A stretch of DNA of 5,300 nucleotides. Source: a bacterium. GTDB lineage: Bacteria > UBA9089 > CG2-30-40-21 > SBAY01. The translations under genes and the position numbers were made by a program. The DNA lies in contig JBFLYA010000258.1 in the NCBI GenBank assembly GCA_040757115.1, positions 1 through 5,300 of the forward strand, given 5' to 3'. The notes under the pieces are model-generated. The model did no database searches, was not told where the DNA came from, and was given only the letters and a program-made list of their open reading frames with translations. Positions 73 through 5,300 of this stretch are shown here, piece after piece (the stretch's first letter is position 1; every line of letters begins with the position of its first letter).

Positions 73-846
73 TCACACCACCTCCACCATCCCAAATCCT
101 TGATTTCGTCTGAAGCCAAGCCCGAGTTGGTAGATTTTATATAAGTCATCCGGATTACCTTTTAGAATGAACTTACCTTTAAATCCGATAAGTTTCATTG
201 GTACTTTAGTTTTTAGATGGTCGCTAATGGTATATTTGATGACCTCTTTTTTTAAGTCAACCGGGATAAATTCCAATTGGGTAATATTAAGTTCTTTCAG
301 GCTAAAGATAAGTTCCTTAAGAAATCGAGATTCATCAAAGGAGATAGTATTTTCGGGACCAGAAAAGCGGCTGATTTTATTCTTTGTTTGTGGATGTAAA
401 ACAGGCTTTTTGTCTTTGTCAACAACAATGATGGGTGACATAGTTTTAAAACAAATCTCTCCTTGAGTAAAATAGGTCTTATTTTTTTCATTGAGAGGAA
501 AGATATTAATTAGATGAAGAGTTTCGTCAAGAGGAAAATCCATAGTTTTTACTTTAAGTAATCCATTATAAATCTTTATACCAGTGGCTTGTGGGTCTTC
601 TGAGATATTCAGAGTAGAAAGATAGAGTCTGGTATTGCGTCTTATTGTTAGAATATCAGCCGAGATTTGGACACACTCAAAGAAGACACTAAAACAGAAC
701 GGTTTGGTCTGGTGATGGTTAGATAAATAAAATTGTTCATATAATTCCGCAGATTCTTGTTTAATTGCCTCTTTTATCAGGCTAAAAAAACAAGACCGAT
801 ACTCTATAGGTAATTTATCAATCTTATAAACAACCCCTATCCTCAT
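73..846 (-). CDS. cas6: Cas6-family CRISPR precursor RNA endoribonuclease
   Basis: Probable Cas6, the metal-independent ribonuclease that cuts CRISPR precursor transcripts within each repeat to make guide RNAs for type I or III effector complexes in the cytoplasm. The 257-residue length fits the family. The C-terminus (residues 242-252) has the glycine-rich loop GLGFRRNQGFG, followed by MVEVV, the diagnostic Cas6 signature. The N-terminal half has a candidate catalytic cluster at about residues 36-48 (Tyr36/Tyr40, His44/His45, Lys48), in the order of the Tyr-His-Lys triad known from archaeal Cas6; the assignment is by analogy. I chose the ATG at 846 over the upstream ATG at 882 because a good promoter (TTGCCT, 17 bp, TATAAT) lies between them and overlaps 882, so the longer form would not be transcribed. 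No cas gene or CRISPR array is adjacent: upstream is repeat-rich noncoding DNA, and a repeat element begins 20 bp downstream. It is either an orphan or a remnant of a dismantled locus. The reading frame is intact. Confidence 0.88.
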   Translation of the reverse strand: MRIGVVYKIDKLPIEYRSCFFSLIKEAIKQESAELYEQFYLSNHHQTKPFCFSVFFECVQISADILTIRRNTRLYLSTLNISEDPQATGIKIYNGLLKVKTMDFPLDETLHLINIFPLNEKNKTYFTQGEICFKTMSPIIVVDKDKKPVLHPQTKNKISRFSGPENTISFDESRFLKELIFSLKELNITQLEFIPVDLKKEVIKYTISDHLKTKVPMKLIGFKGKFILKGNPDDLYKIYQLGLGFRRNQGFGMVEVV

Positions 847-853
847 ATTGAAT

Positions 854-882
854 ATTATACCAGAGTTTATCATAAAAGGCAA
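854..882 (-). promoter_or_regulatory. Promoter of cas6, leaderless layout
   Basis: On the minus strand there is a -35 TTGCCT (877-882; 4 of 6 consensus), a 17-bp spacer and a perfect -10 TATAAT (854-859) preceded by TGG, the extended -10 form. Seven bases separate the -10 from the ATG at 846, so the expected transcription start falls on or beside the A of the start codon. No Shine-Dalgarno sequence fits between them, so the message is probably leaderless (inference). This also decides the start codon of cas6. Confidence 0.72.
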
Positions 883-2344: not shown

Positions 2345-2717
2345 ATGAAAGGTGTAGAAATTAAGAAGGGAACAGATGGTAGAGTAATAATTACTTCCCC
2401 TTATAAATCCTGACTATGTTGCCAAGATGAAGACTATTAAGGAACATTGGTGGCATTCTGATAAGAAATATTGGAGCTTTCCAGATAAAGATGAAATTTT
2501 AGAGAAGATCTTCAAAATCTTTGAAGGCGAAGAAATCTATTTAAATTCGGCCTTACACACCGGATTTTCTAATGCTGTCATTACGAAGGCTGAAAGCCCG
2601 AAGCTATCTCAAATCTATTATACTTCACGCATAACACAACATCACAATTTTGAAGACCTGCGTAGAGAACTTGTTTCAAGGGGAACCGTTCAGGTAGTCT
2701 GGTGTCTAAGTGTCTGA
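2345..2717 (+). pseudogene. Tyrosine recombinase (phage-integrase/XerD-like), N-terminal fragment
   Basis: Start of a site-specific tyrosine recombinase of a type I recall from uncultivated bacteria: a short N-terminal region (MKGVEIKKGTDGRVIIT, then PDYVAKMKTIKEHWW and KYWSFPDKDEILEKIFKIF) followed by the beginning of the SAM-like DNA-binding domain (DFEDLRRELVSR-like). It carries two lesions. First, the frame opened at the ATG at 2345 stops at 2411-2413. The homologous frame continues one base over (NPDYVAKMK, then the 2427 ATG), so one extra base, probably in the AAA at 2405-2407, breaks it. Second, after codon AGG at 2679-2681 it runs into a repeat element and ends at 2717 with element-encoded residues. 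The catalytic Arg-His-Arg-Tyr domain is absent, so no recombinase activity is expected. The strong leaderless promoter remains. Family assignment is from remembered similarity of the N-terminal region and has moderate support. Confidence 0.72.
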
Positions 2718-2901: not shown

Positions 2902-2975
2902 ATAAACGAAATATTTCGTTTAGCCTCCCAAATTGGGAGCATAAACGAACTTGTTCGGTTATGAATAAGTTATAT
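2902..2975 (+). other. Degenerate attC-like (or attI-like) junction before cassette 1
   Basis: ATAAACGAA (2902-2910) can pair with TTCGGTTAT (2954-2962) with one mismatch. A central hairpin, CTCCCAAATTGGGAG (2925-2939), lies between them, and the core site GTTATAT (2969-2975) follows, so cutting after G2969 would begin cassette 1. Like the two better sites it has CCCAAAT in the centre and ACTT just before the right arm. The left core site (RYAYAAC) is not recognisable, so it is a worn attC or a primary integration site. Confidence 0.45.
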
Positions 2976-3020
2976 GAAATTCGGCAACATAAAAAGATTG
3001 TGAAGTTAAGGTAATCTATA

Positions 3021-3500
3021 ATGGAGAGAAAAGAAAAGTTGAAATTATATCTGGAAACAACTATTCCTAATTATAAATTTGCTGATGATACTCCAAGAGA
3101 AAGAGATATTACCAAACAGTTCCTGCAAAGGGTTACCAGGGGAGATTACAGAGTATTTATATCTGAACTTGTAACAAGGGAGATTGAAAAAACTTCTGAT
3201 TTAGCCAAGAGAAAAAAATTACTTGATGTTGTCTCGGGGATAGCGGTGCTTCCTATCACTCACGAAAGCAAAGAATTAGGGAAGGCTTATGTCTCTTTAG
3301 GCATTATTCCACCACGATATGAACCTGATGGTATACATTTGGCAATAGCAACCCTCAATGAGATGGATGTATTGGTTACTTGGAATATGGAACATTTAGC
3401 CAATTCTGAAACGAGGATCAGTGTTAGAGAAGAGAACCTAAAAAGAGGACTAAAGGTGATAGATATAGCAACGCCAGAGGAGGTGATGGCAAGTGGATAG
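3021..3500 (+). CDS. PIN-domain protein, probable VapC-like toxin ribonuclease
   Basis: 159-residue protein with a PIN-like nuclease fold. The first strand LKLYLETTIPNY (residues 7-18) carries an acidic residue (Glu12) where VapC proteins usually have Asp. SELVTREIE (48-56) supplies the second acidic position (Glu54 or Glu56), and EPDGIHLAIAT (101-111) supplies Asp103 in the usual D-x-x-x-A helix. LVTWNMEHLAN (118-128) ends the domain with Asn122 in place of Asp; I recall TWN-x-x-H as normal for this PIN subgroup. PIN toxins typically cut RNA in a Mg2+-dependent way, and the substrate here is unknown. It overlaps the next gene by 8 bases, implying translational coupling. The start at 3021 has a weak AAGG site 9 bases upstream; no good promoter was found. 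Both genes sit in cassette 1 of an integron-like array, a common home for toxin-antitoxin pairs. Confidence 0.72.
   Translation: MERKEKLKLYLETTIPNYKFADDTPRERDITKQFLQRVTRGDYRVFISELVTREIEKTSDLAKRKKLLDVVSGIAVLPITHESKELGKAYVSLGIIPPRYEPDGIHLAIATLNEMDVLVTWNMEHLANSETRISVREENLKRGLKVIDIATPEEVMASG
3478..3487 (+). promoter_or_regulatory. Perfect Shine-Dalgarno site setting a GTG start
   Basis: AGGAGGTGAT is fully complementary to the 3' end of 16S rRNA and lies inside the last codons of the PIN gene. The GTG at 3493 is 9 bases beyond the AGGAGG. The nearer ATG at 3486 opens only a 4-codon frame, so GTG at 3493 is the start of the downstream gene. Confidence 0.75.
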
Positions 3501-3690
3501 ACCTTTGTGGAAATCAGTTGTCTTCGATGATCTCCACCATATCCGAGAGGAATTGACTAAGGAAATGAGTAATATAACCACAAGAGAGGATATGGAGAGG
3601 TGGAGAAAGCAAGACATCGAAAGATTAAAAAAAGACGGTTATAAATATGAAAAGATCTCTGAGGGCTATAATGTTCTTCGCCGTATTTGA
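3493..3690 (+). CDS. Small partner of the PIN protein, possible antitoxin
   Basis: 65 residues, GTG start, placed directly behind the PIN gene with an 8-base overlap and an excellent Shine-Dalgarno site. Residues 12-24 (DDLHHIREELTKE) resemble the D-x-x-H-x-I-R-E-E region of short proteins I recall next to PIN toxins. The rest is highly charged and predicted helical (REDMERWRKQDIERLKK, 31-47), with no transmembrane segment or recognised DNA-binding domain. The context suggests an antitoxin that binds and blocks the PIN nuclease, although toxin-first order is the less usual arrangement. Its function is inferred from position only. The reading frame is intact and ends just before the cassette boundary palindrome. 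Confidence 0.6.
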   Translation: MDRPLWKSVVFDDLHHIREELTKEMSNITTREDMERWRKQDIERLKKDGYKYEKISEGYNVLRRI

Positions 3691-3697
3691 TAAAAAC

Positions 3698-3804
3698 ATG
3701 TTGCCGAACTTCACATAACACGGTGTTTGTGGTTCGCTACGCTTACCCAAATGCTCGCTTCCGCTCGCACTTCACAAACACCGGAACCGTTGTGCGAAAT
3801 TCCA
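3698..3804 (+). other. attC-like recombination site between cassettes 1 and 2
   Basis: The left core ACATAAC (3713-3719), one spacer base and arm CGGTGTTTGTG (3721-3731) face arm CACAAACACCG (3773-3783), a five-base spacer GAACC and right core GTTGTGC (3789-3795). The arms pair perfectly over 11 bp. The variable centre (3732-3772) has CCCAAAT. This is the order known for integron attC sites, with the crossover expected between G3789 and T3790. Outside the cores, 3698-3712 matches the beginning of cassette 1 in inverted orientation, and 3796-3804 matches the end of cassette 2. The cores deviate slightly from the classical RYYYAAC and GTTRRRY. Confidence 0.7.
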
Positions 3805-3827
3805 GCCAACTAAGGTGAAAGAAAAAT

Positions 3828-4589
3828 ATGTCTACTATGTACGACAATCCAAAATATTATGAAATAGCTTTTTCCTTTCGAGATATTCCTGTTGAAGTTG
3901 ATGTGTTTGAAAAGTGTATCAAGCTTTTTTCTCAGATCCCAGTAAAATCTGTCTTGGAATTAGGATGTGGAAATAGTCCTCATATGGAAGAACTTATCAA
4001 AAGGGGATACCAATATACTGGGCTTGACTTAAGCAAAGCCATGCTGGAGTATAGCAGACAAAAAACTTTACGCATTGGTGCAGAGGCAAATCTCATTTAT
4101 GGAAACATGGTAGATTTTTCTCTTGAAACATTAGTCGATTTTGTATACATTAATCTTGGTTCTTTGTATGTCAAGAATACATCAGAGCTTATGACACATT
4201 TTAATTCGGTCTCTGCGATATTGAAGAAAGGCGGTTTATATCTGCTCGACTGGTGCATTCAATTTAGTCCACCATCAGGAAATGGAGAAACTTGGGAGAT
4301 AGAAAAAGAGGGAATTCGCGTTAAAACTACGGTGAAATCAAAAGTCATAAATCCTGTTGAGCAAACTTTTGAAGAAACCATCGCCCTTGAAATCGATGAT
4401 CATGGCAAATATCACATTATTACTGGAAAAAATGTTAAAAGAGCTATCTACCCCCAAGAGTTTTTATGCTTGGTGTGTAGTCTCAAAGATTTTGAGTTTG
4501 TTGGTTGGTGGAATAACTGGGATCTTAGTCAACCATTAGAACAAACGAGCGAGATTAACCGACCAATCACACTTGTTCGGAGGATATAA
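3828..4589 (+). CDS. SAM-dependent methyltransferase, class I
   Basis: 253-residue soluble class I methyltransferase. Motif I is VLELGCG (residues 42-48), the S-adenosylmethionine-binding loop. The following strand TGLDLS (64-69) carries the acidic residue (Asp67) expected to bind the ribose hydroxyls. GNMVDF (92-97) fits the adenine-binding region, DFVYINLGSLYV (104-115) motif IV, and LKKGGLYLLDW (132-142) the post-motif strand. The C-terminal third (about 150-253) is a beta-rich region that probably shapes the substrate pocket. I do not recognise the substrate; small molecules are usual for this UbiE-like type. The ATG at 3828 has AAGGTGA 9 bases upstream; Met4 is a weaker alternative. It is the only gene of cassette 2 (3790-4697), bounded on both sides by attC-like sites, so it was probably acquired as a mobile cassette. 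No promoter of its own is evident. Confidence 0.85.
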   Translation: MSTMYDNPKYYEIAFSFRDIPVEVDVFEKCIKLFSQIPVKSVLELGCGNSPHMEELIKRGYQYTGLDLSKAMLEYSRQKTLRIGAEANLIYGNMVDFSLETLVDFVYINLGSLYVKNTSELMTHFNSVSAILKKGGLYLLDWCIQFSPPSGNGETWEIEKEGIRVKTTVKSKVINPVEQTFEETIALEIDDHGKYHIITGKNVKRAIYPQEFLCLVCSLKDFEFVGWWNNWDLSQPLEQTSEINRPITLVRRI

Positions 4590-4612
4590 ATTGCATCACA
4601 AAGAAGAATGCT

Positions 4613-4712
4613 TGGAACTTCGCACAACAGCGGATAAAAGGGAAATCAAAGATTTCCCAAATCCCGACAAGTCGGGACTTCTTTTATCCGCAATCCGTTA
4701 TATGAAATTGCA
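4613..4712 (+). other. attC-like recombination site between cassettes 2 and 3
   Basis: The left core GCACAAC (4622-4628), one spacer base and arm GCGGATAAAAG (4630-4640) face arm CTTTTATCCGC (4681-4691), spacer AATCC and right core GTTATAT (4697-4703). The arms pair perfectly over 11 bp. The centre contains two hairpins, GGAAATC-AAA-GATTTCC (4641-4657) and CCCGACAAGTCGGG (4663-4676). Spacing (1 base left, 5 bases right), core spelling and the central CCCAAAT are the same as at the 3713-3795 site, although the arms differ. This is the hallmark of attC sites: conserved structure with variable sequence. Confidence 0.72.
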
Positions 4713-4736
4713 GGCTAAATAAAAGGAGGGATTAAA

Positions 4737-4955
4737 ATGCTCAATACAAATACGGAAATAATTTATAAAGAAATTTCACAACTTGCAAATAATGAAAAGA
4801 TGATTCTTCTTTCTAAATTGATGTTGGAAATCTCTGTATATGTAGAAAGAGATCGAAAGTTCAATATTTATGATATAAAAGGGGTGGGGAAAGAAATGTG
4901 GGAAGGAATAGACGCTCAAGAATATGTTAATAAGGAAAGGGCATCATGGGAATAA
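4737..4955 (+). CDS. Antitoxin-like protein, VapB-type partner of a PIN toxin
   Basis: 72-residue protein. The N-terminal part (about 5-36) is helical, and the C-terminal tail IKGVGKEMWEGIDAQEYVNK (about 47-66) resembles the tails of short antitoxins I recall upstream of VapC PIN toxins; in such systems the tail enters the toxin's active site. It has a strong ribosome site, AAGGAGGG (4723-4730), 6 bases before the ATG. Its end overlaps the start of the truncated PIN gene by 10 bases, the classical coupled antitoxin-first order. The gene itself is intact. With its toxin cut, it can no longer act as a normal pair, but it might still counter related toxins elsewhere (inference). Confidence 0.7.
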   Translation: MLNTNTEIIYKEISQLANNEKMILLSKLMLEISVYVERDRKFNIYDIKGVGKEMWEGIDAQEYVNKERASWE

Positions 4956-5068
4956 AGAGAATAATCAAACGACATAGAAGAATAATGTTTGATACTGCTC
5001 CCATCATATACTTTATTGAAGAACATAAGGATTTTGGGAAAATTACAGATGAGATATTCAAATTGTAA
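4946..5068 (+). pseudogene. VapC-type PIN toxin truncated by a repeat element
   Basis: Only 40 codons remain of a gene expected to encode about 130-150 residues. RIMFDTAPIIYFIEEHKDFG (residues 12-31) is the first strand and helix of a VapC PIN domain, with the first catalytic Asp at residue 16. The rest, including the other acidic residues, is missing. The frame is cut at 5064, and its stop TAA (5066-5068) comes from the terminal repeat of the inserted element (GTAACC). Translation would be coupled to the antitoxin gene through their 10-base overlap. The product should be inactive. The insertion removes the toxin's far side, and with it the right end of cassette 3, from view. Confidence 0.78.
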
Positions 5069-5300
5069 CCGTTCAGGCTATATATCAAAAGTGTAAGAAA
5101 GGGGATAAGGAGATAAGAGTGATATGGAGATAAGATAATAGAAATAGATTGAAATTTATAGAAATAGGTAGAAATTGATTGTGGAAAACAACAAATTTCC
5201 ATAAATTTCTATTAGTTTCTATTAATTTCAATTTTTTTAATAATATCTCCCTATCTCCTTAATCTCCACATCTCCTTTTGTTACACCACCTGAACGCTTA
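5065..5300. mobile_element. About 237-bp miniature element that disrupts the VapC gene
   Basis: It starts GTAACCGTTCAGG (5065) and runs to CCTGAACGCTTA (5289-5300); the final C of the terminal repeat would be base 5301. The two halves are an imperfect inverted repeat: GTGTAAGAAAGGGGATAAGG-like and AGAAATAG-like tracts on the left recur as reverse complements on the right (ATCTCC and TTTCTATT tracts, TGTTACACC near the end). The whole could therefore fold into one long hairpin. It codes for nothing. Its first 52 bp are the exact inverse of window positions 1-52. The left flank TTCAAATT (5057-5064) should recur just after 5301 if the insertion made an 8-bp duplication. Confidence 0.75.

Follow-up and report, generated by a model that had tools for sequence, protein, structure and literature searches.

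The DNA analysed here (the window) is a whole contig of 5300 bases (C258) from a 4.3-Mb genome of 462 contigs. It carries a recombinase remnant, an attI-like site and a row of gene cassettes, interspersed with copies of a short repeat (Table 1). The remnant aligns with the recombinase of another locus, L230, at 44% identity over 102 amino acids (E=2e-21; BLASTP E=2e-22) and ends where the repeat insertion at 2681-2831 begins. The annotation of cassette 1 is based on tblastn to VapC-annotated proteins, and its borders on the match between its own two ends and on an attC model. The start of cassette 3, GTTATATGAAATT, is common to cassette 1. Among the examined loci, no relatives of the window's own cassettes were found beyond their attCs, and an Rfam search of the window gave no match.

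Table 1. Features of the window (positions count from its first base)
Feature	Position	Strand	Description
Recombinase remnant	2374-2681	+	N-terminal part of a recombinase lacking I2; one frameshift, then truncated; ORF 2427-2717
Short repeat insertion	2681-2831	n/a	ends AACCGTTCAGG / TTGAACGCTTA; apparent 5-bp target duplication CAAGG
attI-like site	2902-2968	+	two imperfect palindromes (2902-2922, 2941-2961), then TATGAATAA directly before G^TT
Cassette 1	2970-3789	+	VapC-like PIN ORF 3021-3500, small ORF 3493-3690
5' own-end arm, cassette 1	2969-2990	+	20/22 complementary to 3698-3719
3' own-end arm, cassette 1	3698-3719	+	partner of 2969-2990
attC, cassette 1	3713-3795	+	R'' ACATAAC, 11-bp uninterrupted stem, R' GTTGTGC; R1 76.9 bits
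Cassette 2	3790-4697	+	SAM-dependent methyltransferase ORF 3828-4589 (PF13649, E=3e-12)
5' own-end arm, cassette 2	3789-3804	+	15/16 complementary to 4613-4628
3' own-end arm, cassette 2	4613-4628	+	partner of 3789-3804
attC, cassette 2	4622-4703	+	R'' GCACAAC, 11-bp stem, R' GTTATAT; R1 57.6 bits
Cassette 3, start only	4698-5063	+	ORF 4737-4955 and beginning of next ORF; cut by repeat
Second repeat-insertion copy	5064-5300	n/a	interrupts cassette 3, runs to contig end

Ends of the repeat (GTAACCGTTCAGG) occur in 642 copies in the 4.3-Mb genome at up to one mismatch, compared with 3 for a reversed control; in the window they were found at 39-52, 1191, 1284, 1722, 2065, 2681-2831 and 5064-5300. 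This dispersed repeat looks like a very abundant MITE-like element, and contigs of the genome may break at it. Near both contig ends lies a perfect 52-bp inverted repeat (1-52 and 5065-5116), probably two copies of the same repeat family. The contig additionally encodes a Cas6-like protein (73-882, minus strand; PF01881, E=1.4e-15).

Own-end pairing and the attC family

Pairing of a cassette's own two ends at the core is established for integrons. An earlier note on this DNA had described such pairing in the window and interpreted it as the footprint of a circular cassette form. Recomputation gave the same counts for both cassettes, in each case as the sole such stretch in the window, with chance expectations of about 3e-6 (cassette 1, 20/22) and 2e-4 (cassette 2, 15/16). 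The weaker pairing noted for the cores at the junctions was borne out as well, with 5/7 positions for the first attC (ACATAAC / GTTGTGC) and 4/7 for the second. Full complementarity of the R boxes is not required of sites within arrays (PMC5371416). As had also been claimed, pairing continues beyond the 7-bp core, by 15 positions in cassette 1 and by at least 9 in cassette 2. In case of the proposed borders, the own-end pairing stood while the cassette limits were corrected with the G^TT rule to those listed in Table 1. Both matches are broken at position 11 (numbering starts at the G of G^TT), with A in the start and C in the end; this pair forms a T.G wobble on the bottom strand and an A.C mismatch on the top strand.

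When public genomes were searched with a pattern derived from the window's attC, 55 stretches matched, most of them in archaeal (Methanophagales, Methanocellales, Thorarchaeota, Altiarchaeum, Micrarchaeota) and bacterial MAGs (Dehalococcoidia, Aminicenantes, Nitrospira, Neomarinimicrobiota and others), while the few matches in isolate genomes look like chance. A plain consensus search for GTTRTRYGAARTT was discarded as too noisy (48+71 matches vs 36+40 in the control). An alignment of 46 sites of the window's attC type served to build the covariance model R1, which matched both window attCs, found 28 sites in the window's genome and detected sites in 31/31 other bacterial and archaeal genomes, which had been picked for carrying the pattern. 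Nearly all genomes searched were MAGs, a point against the model. Each site begins with R'' (RYYYAAC) and a single base; then a perfect stem of ~11 bp encloses a variable top, and five bases separate the second arm of the stem from R' (GTT...). Across the 46 sites, 9 of 12 predicted stem pairs showed compensatory changes. Core boxes around GTT/AAC and a hairpin are thereby present as in integron attCs. An uninterrupted stem of 9-13 bp with no extrahelical bases was found in 43 of the 46 window-type sites, whereas the L'' arm carried two or more extra bases in all 14 conventional attCs from the same genome. At two loci of one genome, L021 (G000:C65) and L022 (G000:C224), composite attC regions contain as many as three hairpins in a row, together with a mini-unit that carries no gene, GATAACCAAAATG...CATTTTGGTTATC. 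The own ends of this mini-unit pair perfectly, and its core reads GAT/ATC instead of GTT/AAC.

Own-end pairing was then scored across the family. For intervals between consecutive R1 sites, the 99th percentile found with swapped ends was exceeded by 27 of 77 own-end pairs, compared with 2 of 126 neighbour pairs. No own-end match was seen in about half of the intervals, which counts against the model; in these cases, intervening attCs were probably missed by R1 or the sites are composite. Because circular selection had to be avoided, 48 cassettes were chosen on positions 4-8 alone and evaluated at positions 9, 10 and 12-18, where 266 of 432 positions matched against a shuffled mean of 153 (sd 9, maximum 187 of 5000). 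Rotating ends within arrays yielded a mean of 102 and a maximum of 114, with 174 observed. The match fades past about position 16-18. At position 11, 116/126 cassette starts have A and 90/126 reverse-complemented ends have G; outside this position wobble mismatches had no strand bias (15:15).

Own-end matches in conventional attCs of the same genome reached at most about 7-11 bases and those of two class 1 cassettes 7-8 bases; 9-11 nt has been reported for known attCs (PMC2727003). The earlier remark that the match is longer than expected of a minimal attC therefore holds, given about 16-18 positions here vs 7-11 in the conventional attCs tested. Own-end pairing is known in principle; what differs here is its length and the fixed mismatch at position 11. 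A distinct attC family is marked by this extension of the own-end match. When conventional contigs were searched freely for inverted ends, the pairs returned were mostly at chance level.

Imperfect inverted ends on each unit would also be expected if the units were non-autonomous transposons with terminal inverted repeats. Transposon ends are shared between copies, but here no terminal repeat is the same in all of them: ends differ between units and covary within each (MI of 0.6-1.4 bits at varying positions vs 0.1-0.25 shuffled, in a set selected for own-end match). Further, the units lie head to tail on one strand, with a single shared attC between them, beside the attI-like site. We consider the transposon explanation scarcely credible.

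The reading as integron-type cassettes with a circular form is supported by the family-wide attC covariance model, by tandem same-strand arrays, by own-end matches far exceeding neighbour matches and by the same cassettes recurring next to different neighbours, where their edges coincide with the predicted borders. In one such case, two archaeal MAGs share an 819-base cassette at 90.5% identity, aligned from the predicted G to the attC end, though the two MAGs carry similar sample labels (Yes46) and a binning error is possible. Another cassette showed 70% identity between a Dehalococcoidia MAG and a Nitrospira MAG, here too over the stretch between predicted start and attC. The cassettes follow one another in tandem on a single strand, with precise G^TT borders, and from these sequences we infer recombination in the arrays, including the strand used and the reaction itself.

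Recombinase and attI-like site associated with the arrays

Searching 31 genomes for IntI gave sub-threshold matches on the same contigs as the arrays. These array-linked proteins are tyrosine recombinases, mostly of ~350 aa, with an N-terminal extension, and their genes lie directly ahead of the array and usually share its strand. The opposite orientation at G005:C115 and G028:C152 counts against the model. The resemblance of the N-terminal extension to the HARP domain stays below the Pfam cut-off (22.7 vs 25), and no role is claimed for it. The distance between the KGRKDR and HSLRHSFA motifs was 59 aa in 13/13 members, compared with 100-103 in 6/6 IntIs and ~63-66 in most Xer proteins, and ~41 residues of the IntI-specific (I2) region were missing in all 13 proteins compared. 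The best PDB match was VchIntIA (2a3v), in two blocks flanking the missing IntI insertion. As judged from these alignments, the IntI-specific region carrying the I2 helix (I2 / patch III) is absent from the recombinase. In known integrons, I2 docks the extrahelical attC bases (PMC7790495, PMC2727003). A recombinase without the I2 helix is found here together with attCs without its ligand, so that two absences coincide.

Members score below the TIGR02249 cut-off and at 227-247 against NF040815 (XerA; cut-off 220), a family which at NCBI already bears the loose label 'tyrosine recombinase/integron integrase'. Scores above the XerA cut-off would fit a Xer/dif-type module system, similar to pdif modules and moved by host XerC/XerD/XerA, and in our own judgement the attI-like palindromes resemble double-strand recombinase sites. 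In the tree, however, the recombinases group with IntI against ten Xer-like proteins (100/99), their nearest relatives being IntI integrases, and the sites are hairpins of ~80 bp with a GTT/AAC core rather than 28-bp dif-like sites. A Xer/dif system is thus a very improbable explanation. Within the grouping with IntI, the family forms one side of a branch only weakly (76/67), and the tree therefore fits both loss of I2 and descent from before I2.

To link recombinase and arrays, 294 genomes of one archaeal phylum were searched blindly, by protein alone. This yielded 12 new genomes beyond the known ones, and loci from all 12 were examined. Wherever at least 2.5 kb was available downstream of the gene, same-strand R1 attCs were present (7/7 loci), compared with two weak R1 matches in 201 kb mostly around conventional IntI genes, plasmid controls included. 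Recombinase family and attC family thus belong together. Four more distant relatives were found without use of attC information; one of them (G050) adjoins attC and attI-like sites, while no such sites were seen in the flanking DNA examined for the other three.

Before the first cassette lies a stretch with palindromes, then TATGAACRA, then G^TT. This layout recurs at 12 further loci, as a rule 60-250 bp past the end of the recombinase gene if one is present. By its sequence and placement, this conserved element is an attI-like site. The first reading as integron-type cassettes is thus extended by a truncated recombinase and an attI-like site upstream, and the lack of the IntI-specific region in the recombinase changes the classification.

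In the window's genome, no intact family member was found, the best recombinase match being a fragment of the C-terminal part on C154, where an R1 attC lies ~0.7 kb away. The genome also encodes a conventional IntI (C39, 368 bits), and archaeal attCs are used by IntI1 in E. coli (PMC9668308). Both points would suit an ordinary integron array (CALIN) whose cassettes were moved by the conventional IntI elsewhere in the genome, with an incidental Xer-like recombinase nearby. The distribution of R1 sites, beside the recombinase without I2 in 7/7 loci with hardly a match around IntI, points the other way, as does the lack of the extrahelical bases that IntI uses. In the window, moreover, remnant, attI-like site and array make up a single unit, and this association recurs at other loci. 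An ordinary integron is therefore unlikely, although of the alternatives it is the one we take most seriously.

Proposed mechanism and relation to known integrons

We interpret the window as a decayed integron of a distinct kind, with a recombinase lacking I2, an attI-like site, attCs without extrahelical bases and a proposed long-hairpin mechanism, and assign this reading a probability of roughly 0.8. The array would work like an integron but lacks two IntI-type features, I2 and extrahelical bases, and we therefore class it as an integron variant. On this reading, a gene for a Xer/IntI-like tyrosine recombinase without I2 preceded the array and shared its strand. In the proposed mechanism, a cassette would first be excised as a circle. 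Here, its own start would follow its own attC, allowing the bottom strand to fold into one long hairpin with an outer arm of ~16-22 nt that takes in the R box, a bulge formed by the spacers (1 vs 5 nt) and the 11-bp stem. The recombinase would then integrate the circle into attI, the exchange taking place at G^TT, and insertion would part the two arms, leaving them at opposite ends of the linear cassette. The long arm together with the position-11 wobble may serve recognition and strand choice, in place of I2 and the extrahelical bases.

Folding was predicted for 34 cassettes. The stability of the circle form exceeded that of the integrated form by an average of 10 kcal/mol, a gain to be expected because the cassettes were selected for own-end match. 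In the circle form, the bottom strand was predicted to fold better than the top strand in 34/34 cassettes, a property that had not been selected for and from which a bottom-strand preference is predicted.

In terms of overall organization, the system resembles chromosomal IntI integrons (TIGR02249), sharing a tyrosine recombinase, an attI-like site, tandem single-gene cassettes, attCs with an R''/R' core and G^TT and a predicted bottom-strand bias. It differs from them in a recombinase without the I2/patch III insertion, in attCs without extrahelical bases on the L'' arm, in own-end pairing over ~16-18 instead of 7-11 positions and in the recombinase usually being on the same strand as the array. 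Reversed orientation of the recombinase compared with most integrons is also a feature of Treponema-type integrons (PMC9668308), but those encode IntIs whereas the recombinases described here lack I2. Archaeal XerA (NF040815) has the same domain layout without I2; unlike it, the present family is linked to attC arrays and attI-like sites and groups with IntI in the tree. Closest in distribution are the archaeal integrons of Ghaly et al. 2022 (PMC9668308), which comprise attC arrays in archaeal MAGs with cross-domain sharing, mostly without a recognised IntI. The IntIs reported there carry the IntI-specific domain, short or partial-domain matches having been excluded, and neither a recombinase without I2 nor a long own-end arm was found described in the main text of that paper. 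We likewise found no description of an integron kind without I2 in the literature, with most subscription papers, preprints and supplements outside the scope of this search. The kind is apparently undescribed and widespread in bacteria and archaea.

According to PMC7790495, cassette capture requires the I2 helix, IntI1 loses activity when the helix is deleted, and integrons are held to have arisen through its gain. We lean, by a modest degree, towards a separate integron lineage in bacteria and archaea, sister or ancestral to IntI integrons, that would capture cassettes via folded single-stranded sites without the I2 helix and extrahelical bases and would use a long own-end arm instead. If this is true, an array system without I2 would represent either another route to the same reaction or a preserved state from before I2, and this kind of array tests how integrons arose. 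As intact copies of the recombinase exist in other genomes, the system lends itself to direct tests. Among the integrase-less arrays of archaeal and candidate-phylum MAGs, many may be of this kind, and standard searches requiring the IntI-specific domain would miss the recombinase. At one locus (L277, G031:C41), a conventional IntI and a distant member without I2 lie ~0.7 kb apart on opposite strands.
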